Shown: positions 1,549 to 63,849 of the stretch, one piece after another | Position numbering within the stretch: position 1 is the first letter of the stretch | Layout of the letters: every line of letters starts with the position of its first letter | Program-made: the position numbers and the translations under genes | From: Phoenix dactylifera | Taxonomy: Eukaryota; Streptophyta; Magnoliopsida; Arecales; Arecaceae | Reading direction: 5' to 3' | Assembly (NCBI RefSeq): GCF_009389715.1 | Contig: NW_024067782.1 | Coordinates: 558,001 to 622,000, forward strand | DNA length: 64,000 nt | Notes under the pieces: model-generated | Told to the model about the DNA's origin: nothing | Databases searched by the model: none | What the model saw: only the letters and a program-made list of their open reading frames with translations

Positions 1549-2778
1549 TGCATAAAAGGGGTTCGCAAAGAAGAATTCTCTCTACTTTATTTTATCTTTC
1601 TCTTCACGGCGGACACCGACGGCTGGCAGAAGCCGGCGAAGGTGGCTCGCCGCCGGTCCCCGTTAGCCGTTGGGGGGGACGGCCACCCGGATACCTCCTT
1701 CGGCCCCCTCCTGGTGGACTCGGCCGATGACCTCCTGGCTGAGTCTGGGGACCCGGGGCTGAGTCGACGACTCGGCAAGGCCCCGATGCGGGCTGATCCT
1801 GAGCCCAGCCAGGCGGCCGCGGCCCGAGCCAAAACCCAGAAGCGGCCCAGGCCGCAGGCGGGCCTTGGCCCACTTGGGGGTACCGGGCTGGGGGCCCAGC
1901 TGGCCCTTGTATCTGTGGGCCGAGGGAACCCAACCGGGCCCGCCCAGCGCAACCGGGCCCACGAGGCCGGGCGCCGGGGTCGCAGGCCGGTGGGTGCGGG
2001 CCGGGGCGCGATCCGCGACGCGGGCGTGGCCCACGCAGTCGGCGCAACCCGCGCTGTTGGCGCTCTTTGCGCCATCGGCGCACCGACTCCTGGGGACGTG
2101 TCGGGCGCGGAGAACGCGCCCGGTGCTGGGGTTGAGCGGGCCCAGGATATGCTGGGCCCATGCGATGATGCGCGCGGCCGATGGGCCGCGCGGTCTGCTG
2201 GGGAACCGCGGGCGCTGGGCCCTCAGGCCCAGCCCGCAGTTGACTCTTTGGGCCACGTCACATTAGGCCCACAGGCCCACTCAGATACGGGCCTGGGGGG
2301 TCGGACTGGACTTGCGCTGCAGTGCCAGAGCGAGGAACCAGCTGGGCCTTTTCGGTTTAGGCCTCCTCATCAGGGAGCAGATTTGGAGCTGGGTCCCCCC
2401 GCACACGACGATCATGCTCTTCTCACTTTGGGCGTGACGAGTGGGGTTCAGCCAGGGGACGTGCGGGTGGGCACTGACCATGATGGAGTCTTTCGGTTTG
2501 GCCCTTGGCCTCCGGCTGGGGATGAGCAGCGGGAGGCTGCATCCAGTGGGAGTGGGGCCAGGGACCACCTCGTGCCGCTTTCGCAGGGGTGTCAGGCCGT
2601 ACCGCTGATGACGGGAGGGGGCACGGACCACACGACTGCTGTGCAGCGTATTAGGGCGGCAGTCATGCAGGTCGTATCTGGTGAGCAGCGGGAGGGCCCA
2701 GGTAGCATGCTTGAGGCTGGCCCCGCGGCCCAGGGGGAGGATGGGTCAGAGGCCGACTACGTGGACTGTGATCCATGA
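1549..2778 (+). pseudogene. LINE ORF1 remnant (C-terminal linker part only)
   Basis: The frame is open from 1549 to the TGA at 2776-2778, but the first in-frame ATG is at 1786, giving at most 330 codons. The product is rich in Gly, Ala, Pro and Arg and is low-complexity. Plant L1 ORF1 proteins normally start with a DUF4283 RNA-binding domain followed by a CCHC zinc knuckle, and neither is visible. What remains resembles the variable linker that lies between the knuckle and ORF2. The stop overlaps the ORF2 start (ATGA), as usual for termination-reinitiation in such elements. Likely a 5'-truncated ORF1. Confidence 0.6.
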
Positions 2779-5700
2779 GGGTCCTAGCCTGGAATTGTAG
2801 GGGGGCGGCCAAGCCGTCCTTCATGTCATCCTTCAAACGGTTAGTGCAAGTTCATTGTCCGGAGATCTGCTTCATTAGCGAGACCCGGCTATCTGGTGAG
2901 GGGCTTGTACGTTTGAGACGGCGCTTGGGGAGGGACTGGGAGTCATACGCAGTCGATTCCCGAGGGCTGTCGGGAGGTATCCTGCTACTGTGGAGGCGAG
3001 GGGTGGCGACCTTTGATGTCTTCCACAACTGCCCCCAACAGGTAGTTATGGTTGTCTCGGCACCGGATGTTGCCCCATGGGTTTTGTGTGGGGTGTACGC
3101 GAGTACGGATTATAGGGTCAGGAGAGTCCTCTGGCAGGAGATCACCAGCCTTACCACCCAGGGTGTCCCGACAGTTGTAGTTGGCGACTTTAATTACATA
3201 TTGAGTTTGGGTGACAAGAGGGGCGGGGCAGCCTTTATGGATAGAGCGGACAGGAGGGAGTTTCGCGCTTTTGTGTCGCGTACTGGCCTGGTGGACTTAG
3301 GGTTCTCTGGACCTCAGTTTACTTGGTGCAATAATCAGCTCGGCAGTGCTAGGGTTTGGGAGCGTCTAGATAGGGCCTTTGCGTCCCCGGACTGGATCCT
3401 CCATTTTTCTACTTGCAGGGTTAGTCACCTACCTCGGATCGCCTCAGGCCATTGCCCCTTGCTGATCTCCACATCATCGGGACCTAGTCATCACAGCCCC
3501 TTCCGCTTTGAGAAGGTTTGGCTATCATACCCCCAGTCCTGGGATATTGTCCGTGAGGCATGGCGCATCCCGGTGCGTGGAGATGCTATGCACCGGGTGT
3601 CGCGCAAACTAGAATTGGCCAAGAGGCGTCTTCGGCGGTGGAACCGTGAGACTATGGGTGATATCTTCCGGAGAGTAGAGGGGCTAGAGACTGCGATCTC
3701 TGAATTGCAGCGGAAAGAAGATCTAGAAGGTGCGCTCTCGGTGGATGATATGGGTGATCTCCGGGGGCTTCTAGCGACCCACCACTCACTACTACGGCAG
3801 CACGAGATCTTCTGGCGACAGAAATCTCGAGTTCAGTGGGTACGTGAGGGTGACCGCAATACTAGTTTCTTCCATCGGACTACAATTATCCGGAGGCAGC
3901 GGAGCACGATCCACTCGCTGCGAGACGTGTCTGGACATCGGGTGGAAGGTGAGCCTGCCATTCGCCAGGTTTTGCTGGATTTCTTCCGTGACAGATGGAC
4001 GGAGGATGAGGAGTCCGGCGACAGAGACCATCCCATGAGGATGGATGCGAGAATCGAGGATACTGAGAACGCAGCCCTGGTCCGACCAGTGTCCGCACAG
4101 GAGGTTCAGGAGGCAGTCTGGGCTTTGGCTCCAGACAAGGCTCTGGGTCCGGACGGGTTCCCCCCGTTCTTTTTCCGACAGTATTGGGGTATCATTCGGA
4201 CAGCAGTGGTAGAGGCTATTCAGTGCTTCTTCTCTCAGGAGATGATGCCGGATGATTGGAAGGCTACCTTCATCACGCTCATTCCGAAGCGTCAGGAGGC
4301 GGCGGAGCCCGGCCATTTCAGACCCATTAGTTTGTGCACAACCTTGTATAAGGTTGTGGCCAGAATAATGGTCCGAAGGATGAAGCCCTTACTGCCTGGC
4401 ATTATCAGTCAGGAGCAGAGGGCTTTTATAGCTGGCAGAAACATCTCCCATAATGTTCTGTTGGCCCAGGAGATGATGTGGGATCTGCAGCGAGCATCGA
4501 AGCGACGTAGCTTGATGGCTATTAAGCTGGATATGGAGAGAGCTTACGACAGGATCAGATGGAGATTTCTTCAGCAGGCACTCGAGGCGTACGGTTTCCA
4601 TAGACAGTGGATCGATTGGATCATGGGGTGTGTCAGGGGGCCAAGGTTTTCTATCTTGGTCAACGGCACACCTTCACCTTTCTTCGAGTCCACCATGGGG
4701 CTGCGTCAGGGATGCCCTCTATCACCTTATTTGTTTATTCTTTGTGCTGACATTTTGTCTCGTGATTTGCAGAGGGTGTGTGCCCGCAGAGAGCTCAAGG
4801 CCTATGTCCCCGCCCCAAGGGCTAATCCTCTTTCCCACTTACTTTTCGCTGATGATTGCCTTCTTTTGGCCAGGGCGCGGGTTTCTGATGCACGGGTCCT
4901 TCGGAGGGTAGTGGCGGACTATTGCGTGGCGTCAGGTCAGAGAGTTAATTTCCAAAAGTCAGCAGTCCACTTCAGCCCGAGCACGGAGAGCAGGGTCAGA
5001 CAGGAGATCCGAGGGATTCTACAGATACCTCAGCAGGAGGAGACATTGACCTACCTGGGAGTTTCTATCACAGGCCGCAGACTGCGGGTGGCAGAGTGCT
5101 CCTACCTAGTGCAGCGGGTGGAGAGCAGGTTGGAGGGATGGAGAGCGGCCTCCCTGTCTATGATGGGGAGACTGACTTTGATCAGATCAGTGTTGGGGTC
5201 CATGCCAGTATACCTCATGGCCAACACCGTGGTTCCGAAGACGACCTTGCTGAGGGTCGAGCGACTGCTGCGATGTTTCCTGTGGGGGTCATACGGCGGA
5301 GGCCACGGGGTGCACTTGGTGGCCTGGGAGCATGTCTGCCGGCCTACCAGTGAGGGCGGTCTCGGGGTGCAGTCCCTACTGGAGCGGCGCGAGCTTTTCA
5401 TTGCTCGGCATGCAGCTCGGTTCTTGTTAGAGCCACACGGGCTGTGGAGTCAGGTGATGGCGGCCAGATATGGCCGTGAGAGCTCAGAGGCGGCACGGAG
5501 AGCGCGGCGAGTCTCCTTCATGTGGCGTGAAATTGGGAGGTACTTGCCGACGGTGTCAGCAAACACCAGGTGGCTGATTGGCGATGGGCGGAGTATTGAT
5601 GTGACTACGGACCCATGGGTGGATACCGTTCGACTGAGGTGCTGGCCGACCATGATCGATGCTGAGGCAGTGGAGGGGTTGCGGGTCTTCGATCTTCTTG

Positions 5701-6911
5701 CCCCAGGAGAGTCAGCATGGGATGACGCTAGGCTACGTCAGCTGTTCGGAGGATATCTAGCTGAGAGGATCCGGTCCCTTCCGGTGCTAGGTTGCGGGGG
5801 CCCTGATGTCAGGGTTTGGGGCACCTCTTGCCGGTCTAGTGTCAGTCTGGGAGACCTCGCCGATGTTATCCTGCAGGAGCATGAGCCAGGGCAGGACTAC
5901 ACTTGGATCTGGAGGTCTGGACTTCATCCGAGGGCGGCACTCTTCTTATGGAAGGTGGCATGGGACCGCCTTCCGACGAGAGCAGTGCTGAGCAGGCGAG
6001 GTTGGGGGATCCCTGCGGAGTGCGGGACATGTAGTGTTGAGGAGTCGGTCGACCACGTGCTCTTCCAGTGTACGTGGGCGAGGTCGGCATGGCTGTGGGC
6101 AGGGTTCCCGCAGGGGGTTTGGTGTGGGAGGCTTCAGTTTTTACAGATGATGCAGCAGTGGCTGGCCCGGCCTCGGACATGTCAGGAGGCTATTCGAGCG
6201 ATCTGCACAGCACATCAGATCTGGCTGGCGAGGAACGCCCGCACCTTCGGTGAACGCAGGGTGTCACCGAGGTTCGTTGCGGAGTTCGTGCGAGTCCAGG
6301 CATTGGAGATCAGACTTTCTTCAGATGGACCTTTGATAGCTTGGGACACCTGGGGTTCCCTCTCTGCTCCGGCAGCTCCTCAGCAGGTGTTTTTCACCTG
6401 GGAACCCCCACCCCCGAGTTTTCTCAAGGTCAACTTCGACGGATCGGTCCTGGATGGAGGTGCGCGAGGACGTGCGGGTTTTGTGATACGGGACCCGCAC
6501 TCCAGAGTGGTGGCAGCAGAAGGCTGTCAGTTGTTCGGTACGTCGGTTCCCGGGGCAGAGCTACGAGTTGCCTGGGCGGGTCTTCGATATGCGAGGCAGG
6601 TACTGCAGGCTGGCGCGATTGTCTTGGAGGGCGACTCGGCCACAGTTATCAGTTGGATCCAGGAGGAGCTGAGGGGTGAGGGCTCAGACCACCCCTTGGT
6701 TCGGGATATAGGGACGATGTGTGGGGTTGGGGTGGCCATCCAGGCCAAACATGTATTCAGAGAAGCTAATGGGGCAGCCGACTGGGTGGCTGCCTTCGCG
6801 GCTCATCATTCAGGGTACACCTTTTGGGTGGGGGAGGGGGAGCTGCCACTGGCTCTCCGTGAGTTAGTCTTTTTTGACTTTATTGGGTGTATTCGTACAC
6901 GTACTGTATGA
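2775..6911 (+). CDS. LINE ORF2: APE endonuclease, reverse transcriptase, RNase H
   Basis: 1378 uninterrupted codons. Residues 1-230 form the APE-type endonuclease (WNCRG at 7-11, SETRLS with Glu36, GDFN at 137-140). The closing SDH motif is SGH at 224-226, so the catalytic Asp is replaced by Gly. Residues 445-760 are the reverse transcriptase (KLDMERAYD with Asp586, GLRQGCPLSPYLF, and FADDC with Asp693/Asp694). A zf-RVT cysteine/histidine cluster starts near 1083 (CGTCSVEESVDHVLFQC). An RNase H domain (RVT_3 type) follows from about 1220, with KVNFDGS (Asp1222) and LEGDS (Asp1287). The protein would nick target DNA and prime reverse transcription of its own RNA. The open frame suggests recent activity, but the endonuclease change and the defective ORF1 argue against this copy being self-sufficient. 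Confidence 0.92.
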   Translation: MRVLAWNCRGAAKPSFMSSFKRLVQVHCPEICFISETRLSGEGLVRLRRRLGRDWESYAVDSRGLSGGILLLWRRGVATFDVFHNCPQQVVMVVSAPDVAPWVLCGVYASTDYRVRRVLWQEITSLTTQGVPTVVVGDFNYILSLGDKRGGAAFMDRADRREFRAFVSRTGLVDLGFSGPQFTWCNNQLGSARVWERLDRAFASPDWILHFSTCRVSHLPRIASGHCPLLISTSSGPSHHSPFRFEKVWLSYPQSWDIVREAWRIPVRGDAMHRVSRKLELAKRRLRRWNRETMGDIFRRVEGLETAISELQRKEDLEGALSVDDMGDLRGLLATHHSLLRQHEIFWRQKSRVQWVREGDRNTSFFHRTTIIRRQRSTIHSLRDVSGHRVEGEPAIRQVLLDFFRDRWTEDEESGDRDHPMRMDARIEDTENAALVRPVSAQEVQEAVWALAPDKALGPDGFPPFFFRQYWGIIRTAVVEAIQCFFSQEMMPDDWKATFITLIPKRQEAAEPGHFRPISLCTTLYKVVARIMVRRMKPLLPGIISQEQRAFIAGRNISHNVLLAQEMMWDLQRASKRRSLMAIKLDMERAYDRIRWRFLQQALEAYGFHRQWIDWIMGCVRGPRFSILVNGTPSPFFESTMGLRQGCPLSPYLFILCADILSRDLQRVCARRELKAYVPAPRANPLSHLLFADDCLLLARARVSDARVLRRVVADYCVASGQRVNFQKSAVHFSPSTESRVRQEIRGILQIPQQEETLTYLGVSITGRRLRVAECSYLVQRVESRLEGWRAASLSMMGRLTLIRSVLGSMPVYLMANTVVPKTTLLRVERLLRCFLWGSYGGGHGVHLVAWEHVCRPTSEGGLGVQSLLERRELFIARHAARFLLEPHGLWSQVMAARYGRESSEAARRARRVSFMWREIGRYLPTVSANTRWLIGDGRSIDVTTDPWVDTVRLRCWPTMIDAEAVEGLRVFDLLAPGESAWDDARLRQLFGGYLAERIRSLPVLGCGGPDVRVWGTSCRSSVSLGDLADVILQEHEPGQDYTWIWRSGLHPRAALFLWKVAWDRLPTRAVLSRRGWGIPAECGTCSVEESVDHVLFQCTWARSAWLWAGFPQGVWCGRLQFLQMMQQWLARPRTCQEAIRAICTAHQIWLARNARTFGERRVSPRFVAEFVRVQALEIRLSSDGPLIAWDTWGSLSAPAAPQQVFFTWEPPPPSFLKVNFDGSVLDGGARGRAGFVIRDPHSRVVAAEGCQLFGTSVPGAELRVAWAGLRYARQVLQAGAIVLEGDSATVISWIQEELRGEGSDHPLVRDIGTMCGVGVAIQAKHVFREANGAADWVAAFAAHHSGYTFWVGEGELPLALRELVFFDFIGCIRTRTV

Positions 6912-11147: not shown

Positions 11148-13532
11148 CTAATACGGCTGCTGCCATGTCACTGCAACCGGACTCCTCACTGTGTGCTTGC
11201 CGTCGCTCCATGTCACTGACCCGAACTCCGTCCGTGAATTCCCCGCGAGCAAGTTAACAGCCTCCGCCGAAACCTTAACGACGAACTCCTGCTTCTGCCC
11301 TTTGCCTTCGAACACCAACTTCTGAGGCTCCACCACCAGTCGCACTCCTTCTGGTTCTCTGATACTGGCGCTGTACTCTGACTTCTCCTCTCCCACATTC
11401 ATCACCGTCCGATGAACCAGAGCTTCGAGCTTGCTAGTCCCGGATTGCTCCAGAACCACCAAAACTGATGGGTAATTGAGATCCCAAGGCTTCCGAGTCT
11501 TGTCCGAACAATTCGCTTGTCTCTTGGTTATGATCCCGATGGCGGCGCTGCTGTAATTGGAGCTGCACATGAAGTCCAAGTAATCGTCAACCGTCAGATC
11601 ATAGACCAGACCAGGATCGACGGCCTTCTCCGGGTCCACATGCCCGGATCCATAGGCCCATTCGGTGGACCTGTTTCCCGTGCCCTCGTCCACCAAATCT
11701 TCGCCCGTGTTATCGGCGACATAGGCCGTCGTCATCAGTGCCGACTTGATAGCCGCCGGCGACCAGTCCGGGTGCGCGGCCTTGAGCAGCGCCGCCACCC
11801 CGGCGACATGAGGACACGACATCGACGTGCCGGAGATGATATTGAACTCCGTTCGGCGCCGGTCGGCCTTTAACTCCGTCGGACTCACCCCGTCCGGCCA
11901 GGCAGCCAGGATGCCGACACCTGGCGCGATCACGTCCGGCTTGATGACGTTCGTGGAATGCAAGCTGGGCCCGCGCCCGGAGAACCCGGCCACCGTCGGT
12001 GCGGGCTTGACGCCGACCTGGGTCCCGCGGAAGTGCAAACGGACACGTGGATCGCTGTTGGCGCCGATGTACGCCTTTATGGCTCTCCCGGCCTTATAGC
12101 CGATGGACACGGCGGGGAGGACGTTGGCGTCCGGGGTCACGCCTTCCCCGTCGGTGAGAGCGTTGGCCAGGATCATCGCGGCCCCGCCGGCGTTCTTCAC
12201 GGCCAATCCCTTCTCGGCGCGCGGAACCGCGCCGCGCTCGCAGAGCACCACCTTTCCGCGTACCGCCGCCGGGTCCAGCGACCCGTTGAGGCAGTAGGGG
12301 GCGGAGGACCGGAACCCCGGGGCGGACGTGGACACGTTTCCCGCGTACACAAGCGGGAAGGACCGCCTCCGGGAAACGCGTATCCCGTCGTGGATGGCGA
12401 CGCCGATCACGACGGTGCCGTCGCCGAGCACGACGTCGGCGGGGAATCGGCGGTCGATAGACCCGGCGCCGACGGTGGTTATCCAGGGGGCACTGTTGGC
12501 GACGGTTGACTCGCCAGGGCCGCCGTTTCCCGCAGAGGCGGCGACGAAGACCCCATGCTCGATCGCGCCGAAGGCGCTGATGGCGACGGGATCGAGATGC
12601 GTGGGGACGCTGCCGGCTCCCAGGGAAAGGGTGACGATGTCTGCACCGTCGGTGACGGCGGCGTCGACGGCTGCGAGGATGTCCGAGTCGTAGCAGCCAG
12701 TGGACCAGCAGGCCTTGTAGACGGCGACGCGGGCGCCGGGAGAGACGCCGGAGGCGACGCCGGCGGCGTAGCCGAGGAAGGAGGCGTTGGCGGTGACGAC
12801 GCCAGCAGCAGTGGAGGCGGTGTGGGTGCCATGGCCTTCGGAGTCGATGGGGGAGAAGATGTCGGGACCGTTACTGGCACCGCCGTGGGTGGCCGCCAGA
12901 TAGCCATTTGAGAAGAAGCGGGCTCCGACGAGCTTTCGGTTGCAGGCCGTGGACGAGAAGGAGAGGCCGACGTCGCAGGAGCCGTTCCAGCGGGAAGGGG
13001 GTGGGGGCAGGCGGCCATCGTCGGCGAAGCTCCGATGGTCTGGGCGGATGCCGGTGTCAACGACGGCGATGACCACGGAGGAGCCGGAGTCGGCGGCAGC
13101 GAGGAGGGAGTTGGGCTTGGAGTCCGCGGAGACGAGGCCTAAGAAGAGGGGGGTGCGTGTTGTGTGGAGTTGGCGGGGCCGGTCGGGGAGGACGGCGAGG
13201 ACGACCGGGTCGGACTGGAGAAGCTCGGCCTCCGCCGGGGTCAGCACGGCGGAGAAGCCATGGAAGACTGCGCGGTACACGTGTAGGAGCTTCCGGTTGC
13301 CACGTGTCGCCCGGGAGGATCTCTCGAGAGAGTCGGTGGAAGAGCGGAGGGTATGGAGAGTGGAGGAGTACCACTGCTCGACGTCGGCAAACACAGAGGG
13401 TTTAAGGTCACCCCGGACGCGAATGATATAACATTTTCGAGCACTAGTATCGGCAGCATCGCCGCCGGGAGAAGAAAGGAAAAGGATGGAAACCGAGACG
13501 ATAAGGAGAAGGAAGGAAGGGGAGAAGGCCAT
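11148..13532 (-). CDS. Subtilisin-like serine protease (plant subtilase, SBT1 type)
   Basis: One uninterrupted 794-codon exon, as is usual for SBT1 genes. An N-terminal hydrophobic signal peptide (about residues 1-26) predicts secretion. An I9 prodomain follows (about 34-124). The peptidase S8 core carries the full catalytic set: Asp159 (VVDTG), His234 (GHGTHTAS), oxyanion Asn336 (SAGNGGP) and Ser570 (SGTSMSCPHVAG). A PA domain is inserted at about 395-485 and a C-terminal fibronectin III-like domain lies at about 690-790. Length fits the family (about 750-800). It should be autoprocessed and act in the cell wall on peptide precursors or wall proteins. The start is the first Met, directly before the signal peptide. 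A TATA box lies 65 nt upstream. GC-rich with no sign of decay, unlike the relic copy at 17 kb. Confidence 0.95.
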   Translation of the reverse strand: MAFSPSFLLLIVSVSILFLSSPGGDAADTSARKCYIIRVRGDLKPSVFADVEQWYSSTLHTLRSSTDSLERSSRATRGNRKLLHVYRAVFHGFSAVLTPAEAELLQSDPVVLAVLPDRPRQLHTTRTPLFLGLVSADSKPNSLLAAADSGSSVVIAVVDTGIRPDHRSFADDGRLPPPPSRWNGSCDVGLSFSSTACNRKLVGARFFSNGYLAATHGGASNGPDIFSPIDSEGHGTHTASTAAGVVTANASFLGYAAGVASGVSPGARVAVYKACWSTGCYDSDILAAVDAAVTDGADIVTLSLGAGSVPTHLDPVAISAFGAIEHGVFVAASAGNGGPGESTVANSAPWITTVGAGSIDRRFPADVVLGDGTVVIGVAIHDGIRVSRRRSFPLVYAGNVSTSAPGFRSSAPYCLNGSLDPAAVRGKVVLCERGAVPRAEKGLAVKNAGGAAMILANALTDGEGVTPDANVLPAVSIGYKAGRAIKAYIGANSDPRVRLHFRGTQVGVKPAPTVAGFSGRGPSLHSTNVIKPDVIAPGVGILAAWPDGVSPTELKADRRRTEFNIISGTSMSCPHVAGVAALLKAAHPDWSPAAIKSALMTTAYVADNTGEDLVDEGTGNRSTEWAYGSGHVDPEKAVDPGLVYDLTVDDYLDFMCSSNYSSAAIGIITKRQANCSDKTRKPWDLNYPSVLVVLEQSGTSKLEALVHRTVMNVGEEKSEYSASIREPEGVRLVVEPQKLVFEGKGQKQEFVVKVSAEAVNLLAGNSRTEFGSVTWSDGKHTVRSPVAVTWQQPY

Positions 13533-13596
13533 TTGGAGGAGGTAAAGGGAGTGCTGGGAATTAAGCTACGAAGGGAGAGTGGGTATCGGATATATC

Positions 13597-19588: not shown

Positions 19589-20429
19589 CTACACTACAAA
19601 AGAAAGGATATCTTCCGACGGTTTTTTTGGTCTCTACCGACGCTTTTAAGCATCGGCGAATTTTCAGCCCACGCACCATAAAGCGTAGGTCAGACGTCGG
19701 GCAGGTGGGCGTGGGTCCGGTTTTTGCCGACGCTAAGAAAAAGCGTCGGCAAAAACAGGGCTTTCCCGACGCTAATAAAAGCGTCGGCAAAAACGACATT
19801 TGCCGACGCTTTAAAGTGTCAGGAAAGCCCAAAGTATGCCCAGTTTTGCCGACGCTTTAAAGCATCGGCGTAGGCATGCCACAACTTTTATTTACTAACG
19901 CTTTAAAGCGTCGGGATTGCTATTTTTTAAAAAAAAGTAAAAATATGAATGTAAATTTTCATCAATCAAAAGACCTGAAGCGTACTCAAATTCCACCATC
20001 CACTGTTGCATATTGCTTCTAACAGTACTCAGGAAGGAAATCAGATATTACATTGACCGAGAAGTATGAACCAAAATCTCATGCTTCACTTGAGCAGGCC
20101 CCTCCATTGCATATCCACTGTATTCCATGTGATCCAGCCATAAACAATGTCTACTTCTTTCTGCGTGGTAAACAAAATGCAACAATTAGATGAAAATACC
20201 TGATAAAAAATTGACATCAGTAAATAAGCAAATAGGCGCACTAAGTTCTTTTTTCTGAAAAAAAAATTTATGGCAAACACACTAGATATTGTACGTTGAA
20301 GAAAAGATTATTGGTGTGGTATGTGTTAATTAGTGTTTGTTTCCCATTTGGAAATTATAGAGATAAGACTACAATGTTGCATGGGGCAAAGATCAGAAGC
20401 AGAAGACACAATAGCCAATCAATACAAAC

Positions 20430-20645
20430 CTGCCCCTTTTAGCTTTTGGGACAAGTAAACCCCATTTCTCAAGGCTTTTGAAACGATCCCTTGCAAGAGT
20501 GCAACATCCCTAAACAAAATAATAGGTGTGCTAAAATTCAGATGTAGCCAAGAGCTGAAACCGGAAGGAATCAATATATAAATGAGAACCTAGTGAGTAC
20601 CTTCAGCTTACGCAGAGACCCAGAGATTTTCTATATCAAAAGAAC
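20430..20645 (-). pseudogene. Captured fragment of a ribosome biogenesis factor (NOP53-like)
   Basis: Two small exons. 20601-20645 reads ISGSLRKLK after a CAG acceptor and ends at AAG|GTACTC. The next exon starts at 20509 and reads GCCTLARDRFKSLEKWGLL followed by VPKAKRGR. This matches my recollection of the C-terminus of plant NOP53 (GLTSCR2), a nucleolar factor for 60S assembly. A stop codon sits in the first exon. Intron and splice sites are kept, so genomic DNA rather than mRNA was captured. Confidence 0.6.
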
Positions 20646-20800
20646 CTGAAGATGATCAAAGCACATATTAGAGGTTCTAAGCAATTTAAAACAATCAATT
20701 CAAAATTCACAAGAATCCCCCTTTTTTTTAGCAAAACAGAGGGAAGGACCACAATACATAAAAGTTCCAGATGTTTGGAGCACTTAAGAAGCTTCATTAC

Positions 20801-21042
20801 CTTAGGCATTTCAAAGCCAAGTAGCTCAATTTCTCACTGAACATAAGCTCCTTCAGGAACACTAGAAGGCCTGTTCATGAAATCTCATTAGTATTTTCAA
20901 GTGTTTTGTTCAAAAACCAAGATAGCCAATTGTTTAGAAAATTGACCTTGTAAACTTATCATATGCATAATCTGGAGAGCAAGCAACAAGCGAGATCTCT
21001 TCAGGAAGCATTAAACGAACACACATTTTCTTGTAGTGCATC
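20801..21042 (-). pseudogene. PAS1: Captured fragment of PASTICCINO1 (FKBP-type immunophilin)
   Basis: The exon ending at 20947 reads MCVRLMLPEEISLVACSPDY then AYDKFTR. A 76-nt intron follows (GT at 20946, AG at 20871). The exon 20801-20870 reads PSSVPEGAYVQ, a TGA where Trp is expected, then EIELLGFEMPK, ending at AAG|GTAATG. These strings fit the last FKBP-like domain of plant PAS1, a regulator of very-long-chain fatty acid synthesis and cell division. Phases across the intron agree. The piece has no start and is not a working gene. Confidence 0.7.
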
Positions 21043-21055
21043 TTCACATTCTCCG

Positions 21056-21290
21056 CCCGATTCCTAGGATCCCACAGATATCCTTCTCATCTTCATATGA
21101 TATCCTTCATCACATCCCTCACCTTCCGATTCCTAGGATCCCATCCTCGCGCTCAGATCCAGCGGCTCCATCTGCACCACGTCGACCCCCTCGACGCCGG
21201 CGATCGCCTCGATCTCCGCCAGCCCCGCCGCCGTCTCCACCTGGCACATCACCAGCAGCTCCTCCAGCAGTATATTTCCAGCACAGCAGC
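21056..21290 (-). pseudogene. Captured fragment of an HpcH/HpaI-type aldolase
   Basis: The frame reads ELLVMCQVETAAGLAEIEAI, then AGVEGVDVVQMEPLDLSARMG, the substrate and metal-binding core of the plant HpcH/HpaI aldolase family (2-keto-3-deoxy-L-rhamnonate aldolase-like). After MG a short deletion shifts the frame, and DPRNRKVRDVMKD continues near 21100. The phrase WDPRNR occurs a second time near 21060-21080, so the end of the piece is partly duplicated. It directly abuts the PAS1 fragment in the same orientation. Confidence 0.75.
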
Positions 21291-21734
21291 AGTCATCAAG
21301 CATCAAAGAAAAAAAATCAAAGAAAGAGGGAGGGCGGAAATACGGACGCGAAGGGAGAGGGCTCGACGAAAAGAGCAATGCGTCAAGGCCTGGAGTTGGC
21401 CTCGGCATCCTCCAACAGCGGCGGCGCTTCCTCGACCTCCTGTTCCTTTAGCTCTTCTATCGTCATCTTCCTCGCCGACGCCGACACCAAGACCGCCGCT
21501 CTCCTCCGCTTCTTTTGGCATACGGCGAGACGCCGCGCTTCTCGCGAGAAGCAGGGGCTTCTTGCAACCCAAGACAGAGCACAAGAAGAAGAAGGGAGAA
21601 GAGGGGGGCCAGGAGAAAGAGGAGGAGGAGACATGGGAGAGAAGGGGAAGGAAGAAAGATTTATAGAAATATCGTAGGGGCGCGGCGCTGGAGGCGATTG
21701 ATTGGGGAGTTTGCTAAAAGACTGTGAAGAGCGC

Positions 21735-21760
21735 GGGGGGGGGGGGGGGGGGGGGGGGGG
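21735..21760. repeat. Poly-G run of 26
   Basis: Homopolymer inside the CACTA element. The exact length is doubtful in any assembly. Confidence 0.9.
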
Positions 21761-22249
21761 TGTGGGTGCGAAGGAGGGAATCTGAGACTCTCCAATTGGT
21801 GCTCTTCCAAGTATATTCCTGTGGGGGATGGAATAACAATGCGATGCCGGGGGCATAGGAGGCTAGACCCAATTAGCGTCGTCTTAAGCCGGCGACTACA
21901 ACAACGCTTATTAGCGTCGTGTTTTGCCGATGCTTGTGGGCAAGCGTCGGCAAAAAGCGTCGGTAAAACCGACTTTTCCTGTAGTGCTAGGAGTTTGGGC
22001 TAACTCTAGTAAAATTTTTATAAAAAATCAAGGTACTAATCGTAAGGCCAAACCCCAATTGATATGTGCTGTATGTGTGATAAGTAGAAGTTCGAGTCAA
22101 AGGACGTCTAATCTACTATAGTTCCTTCAGATACATACTATCAACACTAAGTGAGGTTCAAGTATACATGACACCTCACCCATTGCATAGTATAAATTGC
22201 CCAGATTTTTTTCTATTTATTTATTTAAATTTAAATCTTTTGTACGGAT

Positions 22250-26046: not shown

Positions 26047-29000
26047 TAGGGCTGGAACTGGGCCGGGCCGGGCCACACCCCTACCCAAGCCCGGCCCGAA
26101 ATTATTTTCCGGACTTCGGGCCGGGCCGAGGCCCGAACAGTTTTACAGAAACTCGGTCCGAGCCCGGCCCGAGCCCGATTGGGCCAGCCCGATCCCGAGC
26201 CCGGCCCGATCCCGAGCCCGACCCAGTTTACATGATTAATTGAGCAAAGCTTGAGCTTGGCCCAATCATAGAGTGAACCAAGAGCTTCAGCTTGCCTGGC
26301 TTACTTGGGTCCTGTAGAAACATGTACAGTAAGTTTCTTTATTGCATGGCTATACCGTTGCTACAAATTCATCCAACAATACTTTAAGTGTGTTAAAACA
26401 TGGCCCAGCTAACAAAATTCTCAATAATCCTATCAAAATTGGTAGATTTGAAATTTGGAAGGGCATTTAAAAAAAATTGGATAGGTAAGCCAAGCTATAG
26501 AAGAAAACTTCTTCCAGTTCAACAGCATGGCAAATCCAGACTCGTCAACAGTACCAAGCCTATAGCAGGAGAAGTAAGCGAAGAGGGCCATCCTACCTTT
26601 AGTCTATCGAGGGAAAAGAAAAAAACAATCCAAGATCACTTTCTAAACAGTATTAAAGAGTGTTTTAGATTCAAGATCTACACTGGAATAGAAAATAGCA
26701 ATGCTTAGCAGTCATGCTTTTAAACAGTCAAATTTGTAGTAGTTATAAATGATAGATCAACTGCATAGAGGAAAATTTCACAGAGGTGTATGTGTAAATA
26801 CAAGTACATGAAAACATACAAGCAAAAATGTCCACAAGCAAACAACAGGAGATAAAAAAGAAAAAAACCAAGATGAAGATTCTGTCCACAAGCAACGACC
26901 TACTCAGCTTAAATCAAATATGAGATGGACCAAGTAGGCAATCAGACAGATCATTAACAAAATACCACAATCAAGAGGTTTCCTGCCAAATGAATAAATT
27001 TCTAGACTTTATCTTGGCACGACCAATCTGCTCAAACCAGTCCAACAATTCTAAAGAGCATCTGATGGTTTGAAGACAACTTGAAAAAAATTCATTCCAT
27101 GCTATAGTCCTAAGCAGTTCTGTGCAGAGTTAGAATTTTTGAATGACAACATGCAAAGGAAACAGTAGGTTATGCTAGCTCCGATCAGGTAAAAGGATCA
27201 GTGCAATTTGACACTTCAACGATACAACTGCAATCAAACAAAAAGATTCCATCAAAAATAGGAGGATAAAAAAAATCATTGGTCTGAAGTCGTTGTTCCC
27301 TGCACAATAATATATTCATCATATCCATGTAATGGAGAAACCCCCTGAAGTCGACTTCAGGCCTGCAGTTCAAAAACATACAACTCTCATAAAATTTTGC
27401 AACAAATAACCATGATCCATATGAAAATAACCATGATCCACATGAAAATACTCCATCAACAAACATACTTGATACTTTAGGTATGAACTAGATCTAATGA
27501 GAGTATCGTCATTCAGTTCTCCCAAATTGCCCACTCCAAGGTGTCGTCATCTACATTCAACGTTACAGAACTCGAGCAATTTGCAACTGTTAACACACAA
27601 ATCAATCATACATATTTAAATTATAAGTACAATAAGCAAATAAAAAATATTAGATAAATTTAAAAGATTTATATACCTTCATCATATTGTTCACGAAGCC
27701 AATCTTGGATACAAACTAAGGCTTCTACGGTAGATGGGCTCAAAGAGCTTTGATACTGATCCACAACTCTACCACCAGTGCTGAATGTCGACTCAGATGA
27801 AACAGTGGAGACTGGAATAGCTAGAACATCTCGAGCTATTCTTGATAGTTTAGGATAGACTGCCGCATTGCTCTTCCACCAAGCCAAGATGTCAAACTCC
27901 TTATTCTCCAAATCAGGAAGCACATCATCATCCAAATAACTATCTAGCTCGGATCTCTTAGGGCGTTTTGAAGAAATCTGACTTCTAAATTGAGCAAAAT
28001 CCATACCAATTTTTTTTTTGGAAGAAACTGAACTTATATCATTTTGTCCATCAAAATTAGATGTTCGCTCACTTGAACTCATAGAGGGTTGCATTCTTGT
28101 TGCATCTACATACTCATTATACAATTTAAAAAGACAAGCACGAATATAATCAATCTTTTTCTTGCACTCCTCCAACTCAAATGCCTTTTGATAACAAAAC
28201 TCTACAAATATCAACTTTGATCTGGGATCCAAAATAGAAGCAATTACTAACAAATTATTGCACTGAGACCAATATTTGTTAAACTTCTTTAACATCTCAC
28301 TTGTTAATTGCTTCACTATTTCATCAGTATCGATACTTTCATCCATCAACAAAGCCCTAATTCCCTAAACTTCTTTTCGGTATAAATTGGATGTGGGATT
28401 TTTACAACCAGAAAATACTTTAGTGGCATCAAGAAAGGCTTCTAAGAATTTAAGAATTATAGAAGTCTTTTTCCATTCATCATTGATGGGGCATACACAT
28501 GAATGCTCAGTTGCATATCTAATAAGAGCATCTTTATAACCAAGTGCATCATGCAACATTTCATAAGTAGAATTCCACCTTGTAGGAACATCCAAAGTGA
28601 GTTCTTTTCTAGCAGAAAGTTTCATATGTTGTACAATTTCATTAAATGCTTGCATTCGGGATGGGGATGCAGAGACATATCTAACAATTTCTCTTATACA
28701 TTCAATAGCTTCATGAATGATTTTCATTCCATCCTGAACCATAATATTTAATAAATGTGCACAACATCTAATATGACTGTACTCTCCACTAAACAACATT
28801 GCATAACAAAAGTGATCTCGGAGCCTTCTCATTACAGCATCATTTGTGCTGCAATTATCCAAAGTAATAGCACATATTTTACAATCCAATTCCCATTCAA
28901 CAAGACATTTTCTTATAGTATCTTCAATTGCAATGCTGGTGTGAGGGTATGGGAGTTGCTTGAAATTAATAATCTTCTTATGTAGAATAAAATCAGAATC

Positions 29001-46788: not shown

Positions 46789-47516
46789 TTAGAAAAGAAG
46801 GTCCTCAAAATTCCAGAACAGCTCCTCGTTGGAAGCAGGACCGCCCTTCCGACCGCCGGCGTTTGCACCGGACTGCGGTGGAGCCGCCGCCATCGCTGTC
46901 GCGGCCGAGCCCCCCTCCATGGACGGCACCTCAAAGAGATCCGCACACGACCCGTAGACCATCGCATCCTCCCTCAGCCTCCCTGCTTCCCCACCGGTGG
47001 CGGAATAAGACCCGCCGGCACCACCGCCGACACAGTAAGGGCGATAGCGGTGCTGGCGTGCGGCCTTCGCCGGCAGCGGCGAAGGATCTTCGTTGGGGAA
47101 GTTCACCTTGGCCTTGCTGCCCCGGATCCGGCGGGCCTCCCGGTCGTAGGCCCTAGCGGCCTCCTCGGCGGTGCTGAAAGTTCCTAGCCACACCCGGACA
47201 CCCTTCGCCGGGTCGCGGATCTCCGCTGCCCACTTTCCCCACGGCCGCCGGCGGATCCCGCGGTAAAGGTTCTTCCTTTCCTTCTTCTTCGTCTCTGAAT
47301 CACCGCAAGAACCCATCATCACCTATCAACTCCTCTGGAGAACGGCACCCAAGGACGAAAATAGGAAGAAGAAAATAAAGAAAAAATAAGGATAAAGGCG
47401 TCACCTTTTGGGGTTGGATCGGTGCAGGGGCCGAGCCAGAGTTCCGCGGAGGCGACGAGGTCCTGGGGTTGGCTCCGAGGAGGGAGGAGGTCGGAGATGA
47501 TGGCCCCTCCGCACAT
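46789..47516 (-). CDS. Group VII ethylene response factor (AP2/ERF) with N-degron exon
   Basis: Two exons: 47405-47516 (112 nt) encodes [16 protein letters not shown] to DPTPK and ends AAAAG|GTGACG; 46789-47294 starts after TTCAG. The join gives [14 protein letters not shown] in phase, 205 residues in all. The intron is 110 nt. MCGGAII is the signature of group VII ERFs: after Met removal, Cys2 is oxidised by plant cysteine oxidases and the protein is degraded through the N-degron pathway when oxygen is present. The AP2 domain lies at about 47-105 ([32 protein letters not shown]) and binds GCC-box or hypoxia-responsive elements. A C-terminal acidic/aromatic tail ([12 protein letters not shown]) is a likely activation motif. 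A TATA box stands about 150 nt upstream. Confidence 0.93.
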
Positions 47517-63186: not shown

Positions 63187-63849
63187 TCAGATGAGGCGCA
63201 CGTCACCGCACCGCCCACCGTTTCCCCATCGGCTTCCGTTTCCCCGGCCCGGCACGTACGTCGACTCCACGGAATCCGTCGCCGACGAGACGGAGCACGA
63301 CGACGCGGGCGACGGCGACGACGCGAGGCTCTCCACCGCTGCCGCAGCTCGGGGCCTCTTGGCTATCGGGCAGATGGAGTGGGGGTCGGGGAAGTTGAGC
63401 CTGGCCTTGGCGCCGCGGATCTCGCGGGCGGCAGCGTCGTAGGCGCGGGCGGCCTCCTCGGGGGTGGCGAAGGTCCCCAGCCACACCCTCGCCCCCTTCC
63501 GCGGGTCCCGAATCTCCGCCGCCCACTTCCCCCACGGCCGTCGCCGGATTCCCCGGTACGCGTTCTTCCGCGGCCGCCGCAGCCTCGCCCCGGTCTTCCC
63601 GTCCTCCTGGGCCGCCAACACCGCCTTCTTCTCGCCCTCATCGCCGCCGCCTTAAAGTTCACCAAACAAGGTAACGGAAGTAAAAGAATCGATAAGATGG
63701 GCCGCGGGACATGTCATGGAGATGCAGGGGAGGAATAAGGTGGTACCTTGAATAAGATCAGATGGTTCCGACGGCCAGAGATCCGGCGCGGGGAGCTCGC
63801 GGCCGCCGTTGGCGGCGACAAACTTCGGTACGTCCGTTCCTCCGCACAT
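63187..63849 (-). CDS. Second group VII ethylene response factor with N-degron exon
   Basis: Exon 1 is 63747-63849 ([16 protein letters not shown] to SDLIQ, ending CAAG|GTACCA). A 96-nt intron ends TTTAAG. Exon 2 is 63187-63650. The joined frame is 188 residues. Met-Cys-Gly-Gly keeps the Cys2 N-degron, though TDVPKF departs from the usual AIIxD continuation. The AP2 domain lies at about 65-123 ([36 protein letters not shown]). The tail is Ser-rich and lacks the aromatic EELFW-type motif of the other copy. Without the first exon the frame has no ATG near the domain, which supports the two-exon model. Role as for other ERF-VIIs: oxygen-controlled activation of low-oxygen and ethylene-linked genes. 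Same strand and intron phase as the ERF at 46789-47516, so probably an old tandem duplicate. Confidence 0.9.

Follow-up and report, generated by a model that had tools for sequence, protein, structure and literature searches.

The window (the whole 64-kb stretch analysed, G000:C135:558001-622000 of a 773-Mb genome assembly) contains a CACTA element of 2,395 bp, about four fifths of which is host DNA, all of it on the minus strand (Table 1). The element starts with CACTACAAAAGAAAGG and ends with CCTGTAGTG, and its terminal inverted repeats begin with CACTA (CACTACAAAAG... and CACTACAGGAAAAG...). It is bracketed by a perfect CTA duplication (CTA/CACTACAAAAGAAAGG...GACTTTTCCTGTAGTG/CTA), and the CACTA ends that an earlier note on this DNA had placed at 19592 and 21986 were borne out. 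A target-site duplication of 3 bp and short subterminal repeats present in both orientations are marks of the CACTA superfamily; nine sister copies carry perfect duplications of their own. With no more than one mismatch allowed, the subterminal motif GCCGACGCTTT was found nine times in the window, always within the element, for a chance expectation of 0.73, and none of 100 shuffles reached nine. No match to transposase families was obtained in the 10 frames and 5 pieces of the element that were scanned, and the ends and the host pieces together account for all 2,395 bp. The lack of a transposase match in these frames, a cargo derived from host genes found elsewhere in the genome (four parental loci) and the presence of multiple copies, i.e. 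transposition after capture, are the features expected of a Pack-CACTA element.

Other features of the window were recorded as well. They consist of a LINE (2772-6905, plus strand) with one open frame of 1,378 codons carrying endonuclease, reverse transcriptase, zf-RVT and RNase H-like (RVT_3) domains; a stop-free subtilase gene frame of 804 codons (11151-13562, minus strand) with S8, I9, PA and fn3_6 domains; the C-terminal part of a hAT transposase (27672-28361, minus strand; Dimer_Tnp_hAT, E 3.7e-33); and two AP2-domain frames (46792-47319 and 63190-63648), about 16 kb apart and both on the minus strand.

Table 1. Components of the CACTA element and its borders, in window positions.
Feature	Position	Strand	Remarks
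Target-site duplication CTA, left copy	19589..19591	.	flanks the element
5' terminal inverted repeat and subterminal repeats (GCCGACGCTTT, both orientations)	19592..19957	+	78-94% to sister elements
NOP53 piece	19958..20655	-	parent G000:C1:7706172-7706893, 95%
PASTICCINO1/FKBP piece	20650..21028	-	parental locus G000:C3:23683399-23687300 (L019), 98%
CACTA tip relic (CACTACAAGA on the minus strand)	21029..21038	-	absent from both neighbouring parents
HpcH/HpaI aldolase piece, internally rearranged	21039..21266	-	parent G000:C17:3741771-3742493 (L034)
GT4 glycosyltransferase 5' piece	21267..21857	-	parent G000:C12:844820-845405, 87%
3' subterminal repeats and terminal inverted repeat	21858..21986	+	right end of the element
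Target-site duplication CTA, right copy	21987..21989	.	flanks the element

The limits of the captured blocks were defined by a DNA search of the same genome (40 of 1104 candidates scored) and by BLAST of the element against the fetched loci. Four pieces were traced in this way to parental loci on four contigs (C1, C3, C17 and C12), and all four are in sense orientation on the minus strand. The earlier note had spoken of at least three unrelated host genes and had recognized an HpcH/HpaI aldolase, PASTICCINO1 (PAS1) and a NOP53-like factor on one strand; these three genes stand, with parental loci on C17, C3 and C1 respectively, and the number of genes is four. A parent was found for every piece, at the level of exons and, where the parent has introns, of introns as well.

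The NOP53 piece comprises part of exon LQVLLTEEISGSLRKLK, an intron, exon GCCTLARDRFKSLEKRGLLVPKAKR, a second intron, the terminal exon and the presumed 3' UTR, and its alignment to the C1 locus covers the two introns and the last exon. The stretch at 20040-20170, previously suspected to be a fourth captured exon, is the terminal exon region of NOP53; a separate capture at this place was rejected because the parent holds that stretch contiguously. The parental exons of C1, joined as one query, match Pfam Nop53 (E 1e-8, profile positions 365-399 of 399) and the solved NOP53 chain 8fkz (E 9.4e-5). In the genome search (8 of 8 candidates scored), Pfam Nop53 had a single match, at C1:7716524-7716682; it is an N-terminal exon about 10 kb upstream of the captured part and on the same strand as the captured gene.

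In the PAS1 piece, two partial exons are separated by a GT-AG intron, and the first part of the following intron is included as well. The joined exons of the parental locus on C3 gave FKBP_C at E 2.5e-16, and we take this FKBP-type gene to be PASTICCINO1. As had been proposed, two of the pieces keep correct GT-AG introns; they are PAS1 and NOP53, whose introns align to those of the parents. Taken alone, these two pieces are too short or too damaged for Pfam, which matched neither of them, and against the PDB the PAS1 piece gave weak FKBP matches (E 0.04 and worse) and the NOP53 piece no match. The parental locus of PAS1, L019, is putative as a working gene: its next exon, read by eye, seems frameshifted. 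When the 3.9 kb of L019 were used as query (40 of 58 candidates scored, the full-length match of L019 to itself being trivial), the other loci stopped by base 1694, save for stretches within 2250-2396, and the following PAS1 exons were carried by L019 only. The idea that L019 is a mere further copy of the element was rejected, since it alone extends into these exons.

The HpcH piece is recognized by Pfam (HpcH_HpaI, E 4.7e-9) and, read by eye, is internally scrambled in the window copy. Its closest relative among six HpcH loci compared is the C17 parent (91%, the other five ranging from 86 to 90%), an open frame of 369 codons; the parent being one uninterrupted frame, the piece could not have kept an intron. 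The 3.7 kb of the C17 parent are devoid of CACTA ends and subterminal motifs. A paralog with an intact frame is present on C18.

The fourth piece contains the 5' flank, the first exon (transit-peptide-like) and the start of intron 1 of the C12 gene, the frame of exon 2 having served to place the splice donor by eye. The GC-rich frames at 21300-21620, already pointed out as a possible further capture, correspond to this flank and first exon. The downstream exons on C12 are those of a glycosyltransferase of family 4 (E 3.9e-21 and 4.8e-8; joined exons E 7.7e-18), presumably SQD2. A run of 26 G occupies 21735-21760 in the captured 5' flank, compared to about 7 G in the C12 parent, and is either a homopolymer expansion or an assembly error.

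The borders between pieces were then considered. Ten bases, TCTTGTAGTG, lie between PAS1 and HpcH and are found at that place in neither parent. They correspond to the outermost ten bases of a CACTA element, such as the one on C8, whose left end is CACTACAAGAAAAAC, and they are directly followed by HpcH-derived CATCTTCA. The residues NVKMHYK, presumably what had been read as the start of PAS1, turn out to be HpcH-derived AENVKM plus this 10-nt tip. The tip relic is also seen in the alignment of three related loci (L009, L014 and L017), and L010 shows a tip-like match, then CAT. HpcH and SQD2 are joined through a 2-nt filler (the last two bases before the SQD2 piece), and the joins of the terminal repeat to NOP53 and of NOP53 to PAS1 are short overlaps. 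In the subfamily of the window copy, the SQD2 5' flank and transit-peptide exon would have replaced the upstream HpcH part, which L014 keeps at the place now occupied by SQD2. Several junctions of the window copy are common to sister elements.

Other copies with the same ends, for which the earlier note had proposed to search, are numerous: an exact match to the first 20 bases of the element was obtained at 164 places in the genome (80 forward, 84 reverse), for 0 occurrences of the reversed pattern used as control. Among the 25 stretches scanned (the window slice and L009-L032, several of which are parental loci), complete elements flanked by perfect 3-bp duplications were found in ten (CTA, TTG, TTA, TTG, CGA, ATG, GCA, TGT, ACC and TCT); one of the ten, L028, starts with TACTA instead of CACTA. 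Eight further end pairs, one each in the window slice, L012, L021, L023, L025, L028, L030 and L031, were dropped as shifted or due to chance. L009 and L010 have unequal 3-bp flanks (GTT, TAA). They were counted as one insertion in a duplicated segment, and not as two insertions, because their outer flanks are 100% and 99.6% identical over 500 bases.

The architecture NOP53-PAS1-HpcH-SQD2 is found in the window copy, L009 and L010, and reduced forms of it in L011 and L012. In L014, NOP53 and a portion of PAS1 are combined with an HpcH frame that is contiguous; in L017, the upstream part of HpcH is joined to PAS1 and the NOP53 end. L016, L018, L020 and L021 have the final 82 bases of NOP53 joined to PAS1 and to the upstream HpcH part (Pfam E 1.6e-21, profile 2-120, in L016), together with a piece which, from its reading in L016, we take to be TTL-like; Pfam gave nothing convincing for this piece of L016. 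L026 and L028 associate another piece with PAS1 and the upstream HpcH part, and the module beside PAS1 in L026 has no Pfam match. Finally, two short elements contain most of the HpcH frame, one on C8 (L037; 1,317 bp, duplication TTA) and one on C11 (L036; 1,451 bp, duplication GCA, tips mutated). The family is a mosaic, with modules shared and swapped between elements.

The modules differ in abundance. HpcH stretches number 79 in the genome, genes included (100 of 100 candidates scored), and at least 48 stretches match the PAS1 locus (40 of 58 candidates scored). Five copies of the element (two within a single duplicated segment), the parent and weaker pieces carry SQD2 (9 of 9 candidates scored); these other matches are 124 bases on C2 and weaker ones on C221 and C364. 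SQD2 is probably the latest addition, since five element copies carry it compared to the 48 PAS1 and 79 HpcH stretches; we infer the order of captures from copy number and shared junctions, and not from a dated tree. An exact CACTA end of this family is found at C2:890368, about 0.4 kb away from the 124-base match (G000:C2:889847-889970), which possibly represents another element with an SQD2 fragment. L023, L024, L025 and L027 share several kb, including a longer PAS1 stretch, and look like further mobile PAS1 copies.

The coding capacity of the window copy was analyzed piece by piece, and no open chimeric frame remains. The presumed SQD2 start is changed from ATG to ATT, and each of the four pieces holds one stop: a CGA has become TGA in SQD2, a TGG has become TGA in PAS1, a GAG has become TAG in NOP53, and a TAG is found at a rearrangement in HpcH. 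With the presumed start lost and four stops gained, a chimeric protein from the window copy is ruled out. L009-L012 keep both the ATG and the CGA that became a stop in the window copy. An alignment of the window copy to L009, L010 and the parents, 1,755 columns long, shows 24 substitutions private to the window copy, of which 15 are C to T or G to A changes; a further 18 occur in the window copy as well as in both L009 and L010.

Raw dN/dS values of element-borne HpcH were 0.21-0.49 relative to the parent (six comparisons) and 0.33-0.38 between element copies, for 0.26 between the genes L034 and L033. The constraint suggested by these raw values was rejected because the private changes in L035-L038 match a neutral expectation adjusted for mutation type and CpG context: nonsynonymous changes number 13, 6, 16 and 13, for 12.2, 8.5, 13.6 and 12.5 expected, the totals of private changes being small (21, 14, 24 and 21). 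L036 and L037 possess both ends and a duplication, L035 and L038 one end and subterminal motifs only. The HpcH frames of L036 and L037 are nearly complete and stop-free (365 and 329 codons), and change as expected under neutrality despite being open.

The element is very probably a non-autonomous Pack-CACTA whose cargo was built stepwise in ancestral copies and is now a decaying passenger. Its movement would be of the cut-and-paste type, by a CACTA transposase supplied in trans. Ancestral copies would have gained the HpcH piece, the PAS1 piece and the 3' exons of NOP53, the 5' end of the GT4/SQD2 gene having probably been added last. Neighbouring elements mobilised as one via their outer ends would have left the 10-nt inner tip between PAS1 and HpcH, and the remaining joins, with their short overlaps and 2-nt filler, would be those of error-prone repair. 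The cargo would since have behaved as a passenger, decaying by mutation and coding no joined protein in the window copy. The former suggestion of several separate captures lined up in one orientation is supported by the four genes from four contigs, and is to be amended in that the window copy did not itself capture each of them anew, several junctions being shared with sister elements. Four pieces would face the same way by chance in 1 case out of 8, and their common orientation is therefore weak evidence for selection.

Fusion of neighbouring elements has been proposed as a capture mechanism (PMC8903248, Gisby and Catoni 2022), and the tip relic, taken as the inner end left by one of the two elements that fused, fits this published model; a relic of 10 nt is short, and it could be repair filler instead. 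If each piece had been captured directly, e.g. by gap repair after excision, and without fusion of neighbouring elements, the short overlaps and the 2-nt filler at the other junctions would find a ready explanation in repair-based joining. We consider this rather unlikely: a CACTA tip is located exactly between two host pieces, and modules recur in new contexts, such as the NOP53-PAS1 junction in L016-type elements, whose cargo is otherwise different.

A broader proposal, which we regard as improbable, is that the family acts as an assembly line for gene-like units, in which modules would be swapped with sense orientation and gene-part order kept, and from which some less damaged sisters may be transcribed as spliced chimeras starting in the imported 5' region. 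It is very improbable that the window element is itself a functional chimeric gene of the minus strand, with the SQD2 promoter and first exon, HpcH and PAS1 in the middle and a NOP53 terminal exon. Such a gene would be consistent with four pieces in sense and in the 5'-to-3' order of gene parts (first exon, internal parts, terminal exon), with the splice sites kept, with the presumed start ATG and the CGA codon still intact in all four of L009-L012, and with the soybean element Tgm-Express1, whose fragments are described as spliced into chimeric transcripts (PMC1947982). It is contradicted by the start loss and the stops in SQD2, PAS1, NOP53 and HpcH of the window copy, and by the HpcH frames of four related copies, which change as the neutral expectation predicts. 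As for one contiguous host gene, which the earlier note had named as a refuting outcome, or a segmental duplication without any transposon, this reading is practically excluded by parental loci on four contigs, so that the pieces are not one host gene, and by the terminal repeats, the duplications and the multiple insertion sites.

The Pack-CACTA reading places the element in a named class, the Pack-CACTA or Pack-TYPE transposons (PMC8903248; PMC13317346). It resembles the Pack-CACTA described there in being non-autonomous, with terminal repeats, captured coding DNA and a family with added segments (PMC8903248). Two examples detailed in that paper are a Pack-PIF with two donor genes and a Pack-Mariner with one. 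The present element differs from these two in packing exons, introns and a 5' flank from four donor genes into 2.4 kb, and in bearing a 10-nt relic of an inner tip where two pieces meet. Tgm-Express1 of soybean, a CACTA element of 5.7 kb in an F3H intron, is reported to contain exons as well as introns from five host genes unrelated to one another, and its chimeric splicing was demonstrated by RT-PCR (Zabala and Vodkin 2007, PMC1947982). The element studied here is likewise a CACTA with several host-gene pieces including exons and introns, but it is of 2.4 kb and has broken frames. Pack-MULEs have Mutator ends and longer target duplications, in contrast to the CACTA ends and 3-bp duplication found here. 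In Pack-MULEs as in this element, a DNA transposon has captured fragments of host genes (PMC1947982).

No report on this combination of genes was found in the literature searched, and among the matches listed for CACTA in date palm no title reports such an element. Multi-gene CACTA capture is already known, and the present element is a well-resolved further example. It is a compact case, with the parents and intermediate mosaics in one assembly, and the order and mechanism of multi-gene CACTA capture can therefore be traced in the sequence itself. Physical support for the neighbour-fusion model comes from the tip relic between two of the pieces. The family also carries a warning for annotation: many of the aldolase and FKBP fragments of this genome are carried by transposons and should not be taken for genes.
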